Source: Amia ocellicauda
Taxonomy: Eukaryota > Chordata > Actinopteri > Amiiformes > Amiidae
NCBI RefSeq assembly: GCF_036373705.1
Contig: NC_089863.1
Location: forward strand, 24,052,917 to 24,116,916
Length of the DNA: 64,000 nucleotides
Direction: 5' to 3'
The notes beneath the pieces were generated by a model. That model made no database searches. It had not been told where the DNA came from and worked only from the letters and a program-made list of their open reading frames with translations. Made by a program: the position numbers and the translations under genes. Below are positions 4,341 to 62,282 of this stretch, in pieces; position 1 is the first letter of the stretch; each line of letters starts with the position of its first letter.

Positions 4341-5099
4341 TGTTTTGTTTACCTCTGTTAATAAAAATTGCATAAAAACAGAAAAAGAGCAGAACAGTGG
4401 CCTGACTTCCTGTGAGAGAGGATCTCACCCCAGTTGGCCACCAATCACGGGCCTGTGTGTCTGAAGGGAGGGGGTGTCAGCGCATCATGCTAAAACACAG
4501 AGGTTCAAAGCACTTCTCAGCTGAAGCAGTTTGCTGATTTCAATCCACACAATGTTTTTTTTAAATTGTAAACTGCTTTACTTTAATATCACACCAAGAC
4601 CCTTGCTCTTCTCAGTCCCAGATAACCCACAATCTCCAGTTTACAAGGCAGGTGTTTCGACCCATTAAGCAACAGCAGCATAAAAGAGTTTCACACAAGA
4701 ATACACAGTCCGGGTCTTCGCCCATCATAGACCAGCAGGTAAACAGCGTTAATGGTGATTTAATTGAATGATCAATAGAGCTGATTGGTAGAAAAGTCAA
4801 CTGTCCCATCCCCCTGGGTCTTGCTGAGCTCGTTATGACCAGGTCATAGGAAAGGACGATTGCCGAGAAGTGGAGAAATGGGCAAGTGCATTCTCTCAAG
4901 ACCATAGATGGGCAGACTGGAACACATCTTTTATTTATTGCTATCCCTATTACAGGGAGCTTCATGGCTTCTCCATTGGCAAGCCTCCCATTGTGGTTTA
5001 GGGTTATTCTATATTTGCATCCATTTTACTTCCATTGCTCCCCTGTATCCCCCTGACATTTCATTAAACATTGATTGATGTACCGGTTGTTCCTCTTGG
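4340..5099. other. Unique left flank of the tandem duplication
   Basis: No gene or known repeat was recognised. The stretch ends at the left breakpoint, where flank sequence ending CCTCTTGG meets the first duplicated unit. Confidence 0.5.
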
Positions 5100-6785
5100 C
5101 ACTGGGAGAGTAGGCAAATGAAGGAACCTAATCTGAAGGTGGTGCCTTCAGTGGTGTAGTATGGCAACAAGAATCAAACCTCTTTAAACCCCACGCCTTT
5201 ACTACACCTCCTGTTAATCGCACTTTCGCACGGCTCACTCCACTGACACTTTCCCCTGTCCCACTCCTCCTCGATCTCACTTTTGATCACTAACTTTCAC
5301 CGACTGGAATTCTCTGAAGAAAGCAAACCAAGAAAAATGCTTGACAAGTCATTACAGTGTGAACAGATTTTATTGACACTAGTCTCTGTGGACAAAGCCC
5401 TAATCAGGACAGACATTGCAACACAATCAGGGAGGGGAGAGGAAATTGTTGATTTAAAAAACGTTCCAGCTAAAGTGAAAAAGGACAGGAATTTGCTACA
5501 GACAGGCACCATGGCATCAGACTCCGAATGCCTGCTTTGTTGCCCACTGGGAATGTGAGGGGACTTTGGTAAAGACAATACAGTATACAGCACTAGCAGT
5601 GGGCCCAGCAATACCAGTCAGAGTCCCTCTTCCTTCTTTAGATAAAATTAATTCCTTATCTTAAAGCTGTGCAAAACGCGGCGTAATCTCCTGTCCCTCT
5701 CACTGGGTATCCTGTACAACTGTGCATATTGAACAGACGCCTCGGACACGGACACACACACACACACAGGAGATGTCAGAAGTTTCACAACTCTGGTAAC
5801 AAAGGCCCAGACACACAGGTCCCATTACCGCTCACTGGGAAAGTGTGAGGGAGACGATGAAGTCATGACTGTATAATCGGTGACAGGAAAGACGTGCGTC
5901 GGACTCACCATAGGGTCCCTGGTCACCTGCAACACGCCAGGAACACACCAGAGAACACGGGGGGAGAGGATCGGACTGTTTGAAAGAGTGAACAGGCGAG
6001 CGTTTGAGGGAGCGAGCGTGTCAGTGCGTCAGTGCGCAGTGTCTCAGTGTGCTGCGGTCAGCGCGTTGAGGAGTCAGTGCGTTGTATTCCAGTGCAATAT
6101 GGCATTGATAACTATGGGAACACAGCCACAATGGAGACCAGTAACAATGTAATTGTGCCCAACAATGACTTTATGTTAGCTGAACTGAAATGGCACAACT
6201 ATGAAGCAAACTGATCCCACAAGGATCCCACAGGTGGGGGCCGTTTGCAGAAGGGCAGTAGCTGGGCGCAGCTCTCGTTCAGACGGGTTTTGCCAGTGAA
6301 GCTCGCCTGTCTGCGCCAATAACAGAAGAACCCGGAAACACAAGCTGTGGGGCCACCTGCTCCGATAGGAATGGACAAGGTCAAAGGTCAAATGCATTAG
6401 TAGTGCGTTAATGTAGTGCATTTTGTAAACGCATCAGACAAATCAAACTACCAAACAATCAAAACAATAACAAATCAAGTGCATTTAAAATCATCTTTTT
6501 ATTTCAAAATACAACAGCTGAAAAGAATAAACGCACTTGGCCCAAAGCATCACAAGATTAGTCGCGTCTTCTCTCGAGAACACACACCCGGCGCTGCTGT
6601 CTGCCATCGTACTGACTGAGCCGCGTTCAGCCCCCCAGACTCCAGCGCGCGCTCTTGCCCTTTCAGCAACGGCTGCTTTACCCCCAGACTGTGTGCCGGG
6701 CGTCAATAAAGGCTGTCACAGCCCCTCTATTGAAACAAGACAGTCAGCCCCACCTATTAACATCGGGACTTCCGTCTTACCCGAA
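5100..6785. other. Intergenic stretch at the start of unit 1
   Basis: No exon could be supported. Several short open frames exist and are conserved in unit 2 only because the whole unit is duplicated. It contains a short CA run near 5750-5770 and a run of loosely repeated GTCAGTGCG-type words near 6015-6085. A minus-strand AATAAA at about 6497-6502 could serve leftward transcripts. Confidence 0.4.
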
Positions 6786-60021: not shown

Positions 60022-60063
<42 letters not shown>

Positions 60064-62282
60064 TTGACAGTGTGACAGTATGTGTGTGTGTGTGTGTGTG
60101 TGAACCCTCTCGCCCCTCACCTTCACCAGGTAGGAGCCGGGATCCACGGAGCATGCCCAGTAGTGACGGCCCTGGGTCACGGCCACATCCCCGATCAGGA
60201 GGTCGGAGGTCAGGTGACAGGACGTGAGGGCACGGTCTGCGGCCTGCAGGAGGGGCACGCCGGGCACACTGCGGGCGCCACGCTGGTCCTTACTGAGCAC
60301 CAGCCTCTCGCCATGGAATCCCCAGCGAGAATCCAGGAAGAAATTAAGCACTGAGAGAGGAGGGGGGGCGGGTTGGGCAAGGGAGAGAGGAGAGAGTGGG
60401 AGGGAAGGAGAGGGGGAGAAGGAGGTATAGAGAGGAGAAAGGGGTGAGGAGGGCAGAGAGGGTCATTTGATCAGAAGGGAGTCAGGAGGGAGGGAGGTAT
60501 AGGAGATATTGAAAAATTAGGAAAACTGGAAAAACAACAGGAGTCTGGGTTGGGGGGGGAGAGAGAGAGAGAGGGGCGCGGGAGGGGAGAACTTGCAAAA
60601 CTGCAACACACTGAAAACATTTGCGGAGAGAGGGGGAGACGCAGGGAGATATTACTCGGAAGAGGAAGGAGCAGACAGCTGCACAATCAAGGTCTTTTTC
60701 CTTTTCAGCCCAGCTAATTAACATGCGTTCGTTAAGACAGGGGTCAGATGAATCACTCTGACCAGTGAAATATTCATGGAGTGATTATCTCACAGGGTAC
60801 AGACCAGGGAGGAGAGTTGGAGAGAGAGAGACTCAGACAGAGAGAGAGATAGAGATGCAAGGAGAGGTGGAGGGAGGGAGAGAGGGATGCATGGGTGGGC
60901 GGGGGGACAGCTGCGATCCAGAGGGTGGAGGGGATGAGATGGGTGGAGAGAGAGAAAGAGAGAGAGAGATTTGAGTTATTTAGATTAGATTGATGTTTGC
61001 AGGTGTTTCCAACACAGTCCAGAAGGTGCTATATATATATATATATATATATCAGTGCTCCTGGGCCAGAGGGGATTCTGTTTTTCATTCTTAATTAGTT
61101 AACTGCAATTACAGCATTGTGTTTGGGTCTGAATTGCAGTTACAGTGATGTTGTAGAGTATCACAGAGCAGTGTATACAGGTGTGTGACAGGTGTGCTGT
61201 AATGAGCAGTATAGGTGTGTAGACAGGTGTATACAGGTGTGTAGTCGGGTGTGCTATAATGAGCAGTACAGGTGTGTAGACAGTTTTATAGGCAGGTGTG
61301 CTGTAATGAGCAGTACAGGTGTGTAGACAGGTGTGTGACAGGTGTGCTGTAATGAGCAGTACAGGTGTGTAGACAGATGTATGACAGGTGTGCTGTAATG
61401 AGCAATGCTGGTGTGTAGGCAGGTGTGTCACAGGTGTATACAGGTGTGTAGACGGGTGTGCTGTAATGAGCAGTATGTGTGTAGACAGGTGTGTGACAGG
61501 TGTATACTGGTGTGTAGACGGGTGTGGAGTGGAGTAATAGCTGTAACTGGGCTGTAGTATGATTTAAAAATGAAATACACACCTGGAATGGAACCCAGGT
61601 GCCCTTAATTGGAGTCATGTGTGAGAGTGCATGAGTGTGAGAGTGCCACAGTGTCACAGTGTGAGTGTGTGTGTCAGCAGCCGTACCTGGCGCAGGCGGG
61701 GTGTGCAGGTACACCTCCTCGCTGTACTCCCCGAAGCCGGCCTTGTTGCAGCCCTTGACCCGCAACACATACAGACAGTCCACCTGCAGCCGGTCAATCA
61801 CGGCGCTCGTGCCCACCACCTCCTCCAGCCGCTGCCAGCCCCCCGCGCCGCCCCCGCGCCCCCCCGCCGCCCTGGCCCGGCCCTCACGGCAGCGGTACTC
61901 CACGGTGAAGTGCCAGGCGGGGGCGGAGTCCTGGGGCAGACGCCAGCACAGGTACAACTGGTCATAGGCCAGAGTGCGCTGAGTGTCAATCACCGGAGCC
62001 AGGGGGGCTGAGGGAGAGAGAGATGGGGGGGATGGGATAGAAGAGAGAAAGAAAGAGAAAGATTGAAAATATATATATTTTTTTTACTTGTATCCCTCTC
62101 TCTCCCCTCTCTTGCTCTCTCCCCCCTCTCTCCCCCCCTCTCCCTCATTCGCTCTCTCACCTCTGATGAAGTCCAGGCCGTTCAGCAGTTTCAGCTCCCG
62201 CGACACGTCCAGCTGGAAGTGACGGAATGAGGGATCAGCGGAGAGAGAGAAGCACTGCAGGGACTCGATCGCCCTCACTAGC
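56137..62282 (-). CDS. trim46: TRIM46 (tripartite motif protein), 3' part of gene; 5' exons lie beyond the window
   Basis: Five exons seen: 62161-62282 (COS box, [20 protein letters not shown]), 61687-62007 (FN3 domain, [20 protein letters not shown] to [19 protein letters not shown]), 60121-60350, 59792-59859 and 56137-56614 (PRY/SPRY, ending in a stop at 56137-56139). All junctions are GT-AG and phases agree throughout. TRIM46 is a C-I subfamily TRIM protein that binds and bundles microtubules at the axon initial segment and supports neuronal polarity. Compared with the human protein as I recall it, the FN3 domain has a glycine/alanine-rich insertion ([11 protein letters not shown]) and the SPRY domain a proline-rich one. 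RING, B-boxes and the main coiled coil are not in the window. The intron between FN3 and SPRY contains the right duplication breakpoint at 60529. Confidence 0.92.
57218..58440 (-). mobile_element. Tc1 element, unit 2
   Basis: 1223-bp copy of the element at 30176-31396 with the same terminal inverted repeats. The flanking TA run on the right is much longer (to about 58490). Confidence 0.95.
57250..58292 (-). pseudogene. Tc1-family transposase, frameshifted, unit 2
   Basis: Relative to the intact unit 1 gene, a C run near 58110-58116 has two extra bases (TTCGCCCACAGG becomes TTCGCCCCCACAGG). This shifts the frame near residue 62 and separates the N-terminal DNA-binding part (58062-58292) from the catalytic part (57250-58074). 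Several amino-acid substitutions also differ (for example NRKKRL to NRKMRL, DGYFQQ to DGFFQQ, ATLPEI to ATLTEI). The catalytic motifs themselves are retained. Confidence 0.93.
58625..58995 (+). mobile_element. Third Tc1-type relic, unit 2
   Basis: Counterpart of 31540-31925. A frame at 58707-58895 gives [19 protein letters not shown] and [20 protein letters not shown], typical of a Tc1 C terminus. The upstream part is missing. Confidence 0.8.
59880..60102. repeat. GT-rich microsatellite cluster in TRIM46 intron, unit 2
   Basis: As at 32820-33016, with length differences. Confidence 0.85.
60530..61686. other. Unique right flank: TRIM46 intron between FN3 and PRY/SPRY exons
   Basis: No exon here. 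It contains GA-rich tracts (60550-60970), a short TA run (61031-61052), and a loose minisatellite at about 61160-61530. Confidence 0.6.
61160..61530. repeat. Irregular minisatellite in TRIM46 intron
   Basis: Repeats of GTGCTGTAATGAGCAGTACA followed by GGTGTGTAGACAGGTGTGTG with unit-length variation. It lies outside the duplication and so is present once. Confidence 0.8.

Follow-up and report, generated by a model that had tools for sequence, protein, structure and literature searches.

The described systems closest to the locus considered here are copy number variants (CNVs) with microhomology at their breakpoints, which are ascribed to microhomology-mediated end joining (MMEJ), non-homologous end joining (NHEJ) or template switching. 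The breakpoint table of a Drosophila study (PMC4056370) gives microhomology of at least 2 bp for 262 of 644 CNV breakpoints (41%), the most frequent class, and the same table lists 50% (deletions only) and 39% for two human sets. We analysed a 64,000-base stretch of the Amia ocellicauda genome (the window; C20:24052917-24116916 of a 988-Mb assembly in 385 contigs), in which a 28-kb segment with an MROH (maestro heat-like) gene and an EF-hand exon has most probably undergone a real head-to-tail duplication, fixed or heterozygous. Like the microhomology CNVs, this pair of copies has one join with 3 common bases, no insert and no long flanking repeat; it differs from the CNVs reported for Drosophila, where 2 of 50 insertions are tandem duplications (PMC4056370), in size (the median CNV sizes given there are 211 and 432 bp, against 28 kb here) and in being known from the duplicated allele alone. 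The pair also resembles the recent segmental duplications of vertebrates, being near-identical, close together and on the same chromosome, in keeping with the tandem bias reported for them (PMC13431229), but that study presents general trends and its main text has 0 occurrences of MROH. In type, the 28-kb duplication is an ordinary recent event. A third class is formed by heterotype false duplications of assemblies, which share with the pair the adjacent near-identical copies and allele-like differences; Ko et al. (2022, PMC9516828) recognise them by a gap separating the copies, read depth at half level, discordant read pairs and k-mers at one-copy frequency, and the same source mentions a true tandem duplication, allele-specific and contained in one contig, whose depth was at the haploid level. 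The pair differs from the false duplications of that source in having no gap at the join.

Self-BLAST and alignment placed unit 1 at 5100-33442 (28,343 bases) and unit 2 at 33443-60529 (27,087 bases), collinear, on the same strand, head to tail and adjacent, with one novel join. The collinear direct matches pair 5097-8358 with 33440-36705, 8135-25468 with 36188-53567, 27553-31416 with 54592-58460 and 31397-33442 with 58471-60529, and the 64,000 bases hold 0 N, including the join, so that the head-to-tail duplication of about 28 kb proposed by the first-pass annotation is borne out. Its statement that the units share almost all bases holds outside tandem repeats, where 55 substitutions (37 transitions and 18 transversions) were found in 21,642 aligned columns with tandem repeats masked (0.25%), but it fails within the variable tandem repeats: the units differ in length by 1,256 bases, mostly through minisatellites and a CA-rich array. 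A 30-bp minisatellite has 27.5 copies in unit 1 and 17.5 in unit 2, a 48-bp minisatellite has 18.3 and 6.3, and the CA-rich array spans 2615 and 2186 bases. The units meet at 33440-33445, where the sequence reads ACTGG/CACTGG with no inserted bases between 33442 and 33443; the left edge reads TTGG/CACTGG and the right edge ACTGG/AAAAAC. The common bases are TGG, at 33440-33442 and in the left flank at 5097-5099, and the 3-bp microhomology noted earlier is thus confirmed by the edges. Unequal crossing-over between repeats (non-allelic homologous recombination, NAHR) would be suggested by the repeat-rich region and by a left edge lying inside a dispersed repeat. However, when 1.4 kb around one outer edge was compared with 1.4 kb around the other, 36 inverted and 13 direct short matches (49 in all) were obtained; the direct matches measured 9–11 bases, and the longest exact one within 500 bases of each edge had 11. 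A separate listing of 15 matches between the edges held inverted CA/GT-type runs of 16–18 bases only. Long direct repeats at both edges were therefore not found among the matches of these stretches, in which no direct match exceeds 11 bases, and the join has 3 common bases. NAHR between edge repeats is largely ruled out by the edge sequences and we regard it as most improbable, in agreement with the earlier preference for end joining or replication over recombination between long repeats. Blunt end joining, microhomology-mediated joining and template switching would leave edges that look alike here.

The two outer edges and the join can be ordered by what they interrupt. A dispersed repeat spans the left edge at about 4938-5206, and in a whole-genome DNA search (query 4500-5900) its copies elsewhere run uninterrupted across the point that matches 5099/5100, for example at C5:19195409-19195676 (query 448-707). 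Moreover, the piece 4994-5177 of this repeat is present in line, at 77% identity, beside 9 further copies of the neighbouring MROH segment that lie in arrays on the same chromosome. From 33443 onward only the right part of the repeat is present, starting in mid-repeat. The right edge, 60529/60530, lies inside an intron of a TRIM46/36-type gene whose donor and acceptor phases agree. Because the repeat is whole across the left edge and the intron phases agree across the right edge, the outer edges are the older state, and 33442/33443 is the single new adjacency. This adjacency joins a point in the TRIM46/36-type intron to a point inside the dispersed repeat about 28 kb to the left. We infer that the segment came to be copied twice either through end-joining repair of a break or through a backward template switch of a replication fork. 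The duplication would have added one complete-looking MROH gene and one EF-hand exon, the latter probably together with its gene. The TRIM gene would have stayed uninterrupted through unit 2, with a 3′ TRIM fragment lacking upstream exons in unit 1. The 0.25% divergence would have arisen later or, if the duplication drew on two different haplotypes, already when it formed.

Genome searches, which skip very common words and score the best candidates only, showed that different pieces of the unit have different copy numbers. The stretch 29100-29560, which holds a SPRY exon of the TRIM-type gene, has exactly two matches, both at 100%. Two full-length copies at 99–100% were obtained for 19180-22000, with the other 58 rows partial at 68–89%, and likewise for 31400-32620, where the remaining 41 rows come from a dispersed element within the stretch. 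The stretch 61700-62260 in the right flank is matched in full once, and its 28 further matches are short and due to repeats. No third copy or separate haplotig of these pieces was found among the candidates scored. The MROH part of the unit (about 5.8–19.2 kb), by contrast, has at least 10 more copies, whole or partial, on C20; the duplicated pair is not isolated but one part of a larger family of MROH segments on this chromosome. With a 2-kb probe (16500-18500), for which the best 40 of 52 candidates were scored so that the counts are lower bounds, at least five full-length places at 99% and at least five partial places at 92–100% were found besides the pair, all on C20; they lie on the plus strand at 22.967, 22.990, 23.032 and 23.061 Mb and on the minus strand at 23.375, 23.389, 23.433, 23.456, 23.479 and 23.502 Mb. 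These places form two mirror-oriented clusters, C20:22957262-23063494 (4 plus) and C20:23375192-23514893 (6 minus), about 0.5–1.1 Mb from the window, in which the MROH-bearing segments are near-identical and several are spaced at 21.5–23 kb. To the left of the first cluster, at C20:22930001-22947385, is a tandem-repeat array of at least 17 kb, in which the differences in spacing between matches point to a repeat unit of about 29 bases. More distant relatives comprise a match of 427 bases at 24.773 Mb (90%) and weaker ones, mostly 66–85%, on C2, C5, C20, C25, C47 and elsewhere; a further family at 72–73% with 53–64-kb spacing occurs on C47 (at 3687, 56932, 113613 and 166848) and at C20:24930903 and C20:24994504.

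Of the ten array places, four were retrieved with their surroundings and a fifth in part, and for the remaining five the search tables are the sole source. In the four, the sequence common with the pair is 5772-19179, interrupted by gaps and rearrangements, and 19180-22000 is lacking. Over 14836-19043 the pair differs by 0.24% and three array copies by 0.22–0.38% among themselves, whereas the two groups differ by 1.4–1.7%. This distance is not constant along the segment. Counted in bins of 500 bases, the differences from unit 1 number 7/3494 for the copy at 22.990 Mb and 7/3194 for that at 23.061 Mb over 9.5–13.0 kb, introns included, and 74/3377 and 80/3377 over 14.0–17.5 kb. The copies at 22.967 and 23.032 Mb show 49/980 differences over 9.5–10.5 kb and are unaligned over most of 11–13 kb. 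Two of the compared copies are mosaics, at about 0.2% or about 2% from the pair depending on the stretch, which suggests gene conversion or successive partial duplications. A wider reading is that C20 is a hub of MROH amplification, consisting of the two clusters and the pair, in which gene conversion operates, and that the 28-kb duplication founds a further array, taking along the EF-hand exon and adjoining sequence as a passenger absent from the older clusters; we offer it tentatively, as rather less than an even chance. A literature search on MROH with tandem duplication, fish genomes, expansion or copy number gave no MROH clusters in the titles and abstract openings of the matches listed.

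The differences between the units are unevenly spaced. Two identical runs of 3913 and 3536 unmasked columns occur, and the probability of the longest is about 0.001 (0.002–0.004 without the repeat-rich parts). The variance-to-mean ratio of the differences is 1.6–2.8 over all unmasked columns, 1.37–1.57 (P 0.04–0.06) without the Tc1-type transposon and dispersed-element stretches, and 1.28–1.76 (P 0.02–0.09) without 30.2–33.4 kb. Hence the evidence for uneven spacing is weaker once repeats are removed, and the long identical runs are still unusual. The patchy spacing suggests exchange, and a uniform molecular clock for the pair was rejected on the overdispersed differences and the long identical runs. 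Since the MROH family is mosaic and the unit differences are uneven, the value of 0.25% is not a simple clock; of the earlier description of the duplication as very recent, it stands that the pair is young in that both units are almost unchanged, but a clock-based age is unreliable through exchange within the family. We also observed that 12 of the 55 differences fall in 31454-32519, with 8 transversions among them against 10 transversions among the 43 elsewhere (Fisher P 0.012). Part of this region is occupied by a dispersed element of high copy number, about 355 bases long (31564-31919), and the excess at 31.4–32.6 kb may come from exchange with, or misassembly of, that element.

Several observations weigh against a real duplication or lessen what the pair can say of it. 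A divergence of 0.25% also fits two haplotypes of one fish. Differences in patches are expected of alleles as much as of converted paralogues. At least 3 common bases occur by chance at about 5% of random joins with equal base frequencies, so the TGG microhomology alone is weak evidence. The 31 differences that could be polarised with the array copies fall on both units (17 on unit 1, 12 on unit 2, 2 unclear), which speaks for a real duplication, but this polarisation is weakened because the array copies used as outgroups are themselves mosaics. The rival explanation is an assembly artefact, in which two haplotypes of a single-copy locus were placed in tandem. It would account for a divergence within the plausible range of heterozygosity, for the alternation of identical and differing stretches and for minisatellite lengths that differ as between alleles, and according to Ko et al. 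(2022, PMC9516828) some assemblies have widespread false duplications. However, there is no assembly gap between the copies, with 0 N at the join and in the window, and a join made by overlap should need far more than 3 common bases, barring a chimeric read or wrong gap filling. We consider the artefact unlikely. A real duplication is favoured because the join is gap-free, base-exact and without overlap, because there is a single new adjacency, and because other recent copies of the same segment exist on the chromosome. A sub-case of it is a duplication on one haplotype or in some individuals only (a segregating CNV), with which the low divergence and the differences patchy as in allelic samples agree, and for which the allele-specific tandem duplication in one contig of Ko et al. 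(PMC9516828) offers a precedent; we rate this sub-case as quite possible, if somewhat short of an even chance. The read-depth test put forward in the first-pass annotation allowed two outcomes, and by arithmetic there are three: depth per copy relative to the flanks of about 1.0 for a duplication on both haplotypes, 0.75 for one and 0.5 for a false one. If real, the pair would present an early step of gene amplification resolved to the base, with one join and both copies almost unchanged, and the larger clusters that this segment forms elsewhere on the chromosome would allow early and later stages to be compared; it also cautions that, where members of a family exchange sequence, substitution divergence is a poor guide to the age of such pairs. 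If false, it would exemplify a gap-free assembly duplication that gap-based checks would miss.

The genes carried by the units lie on the minus strand. A rough, partial exon model of the MROH gene covers 9365-18201 in unit 1, and its coordinates transferred through the alignment give 37415-46259 in unit 2. The model comprises 922 codons in three pieces; its exon 17251-17677 probably includes an intron, and 14.3–15.4 kb lies outside it. A 503-residue part matched HEAT_Maestro (PF21047) with 35.9 bits against a cut-off of 27.4, a 379-residue part matched no Pfam family, and Pfam scans of single exons gave no family above cut-off. Between the units the model has 4 coding differences, 2 of them protein-changing, in 922 codons, and the unit alignment lists no indels in its exons. 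The EF-hand exon frames are at 21624-21731 in unit 1 (Pfam EF-hand_1 21.8 bits, under the curated 25.4) and at 49670-49777 in unit 2, and they differ once, in the last residue (D/G). By our own reading, a possible upstream exon with a hydrophobic start is located at about 23.1–23.2 kb, and a full EF-hand gene per unit is likely. The earlier claim of two full MROH genes and two full EF-hand genes therefore stands for the duplicated MROH gene and is confirmed for the EF-hand as one exon per unit.

For the TRIM-type gene, FN3 and COS frames are present at 61688-62449 on the minus strand of the right flank, outside the duplication and in single copy (61700-62260). In unit 2 and in line with them, on the same strand, are the first SPRY exon (60117-60350, lower boundary approximate, offset 27087 from unit 1) and the last SPRY exon stretch from the genome search (56140-56600). 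The corresponding unit 1 features, also on the minus strand, are the first SPRY exon at 33030-33263 (lower boundary approximate), with its acceptor at 33264, and the last SPRY exon frame at 29100-29618. The COS, FN3 and SPRY exons stand in order, and the SPRY acceptor at 33264, which needs 2 bases, is compatible with the phase 1 donor of FN3 at 61687. On this exon layout the TRIM46/36-type gene reads as continuous through unit 2, and unit 1 as keeping an orphan 3′ part without upstream exons. All domain scores are under the curated cut-offs (COS 23.7 against 27.1, fn3 24.4 against 25.0, SPRY 20.3 against 26.3), and the sole match among PDB sequences is HAPRIN-a2; Haprin we take to be TRIM36. 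With the exons in order but all scores under the cut-offs, the gene labelled TRIM46 earlier could be of TRIM46 or TRIM36 type.

The new adjacency sets the unit 2 MROH gene in line with the orphan SPRY exons of unit 1, both on the minus strand, and with the acceptor at 33264 present a working chimeric gene could be imagined. However, this acceptor needs a phase 1 donor, all six exon ends tested in the 3′ part of the MROH model are in phase 0 or 2, and AATAAA signals at 34846 and 33717 lie between. An in-frame fusion was rejected on these six phases, and because the tested MROH exon ends are out of frame with the SPRY acceptor, a chimeric protein is highly unlikely.

Both units also carry a Tc1-type transposon, at 30172-31400 on the minus strand in unit 1, with an open transposase frame of 346 codons (30211-31248), and at 57214-58444 in unit 2. 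Three related copies of it, at 98.5–99.6%, were observed within 200 kb of fetched sequence.

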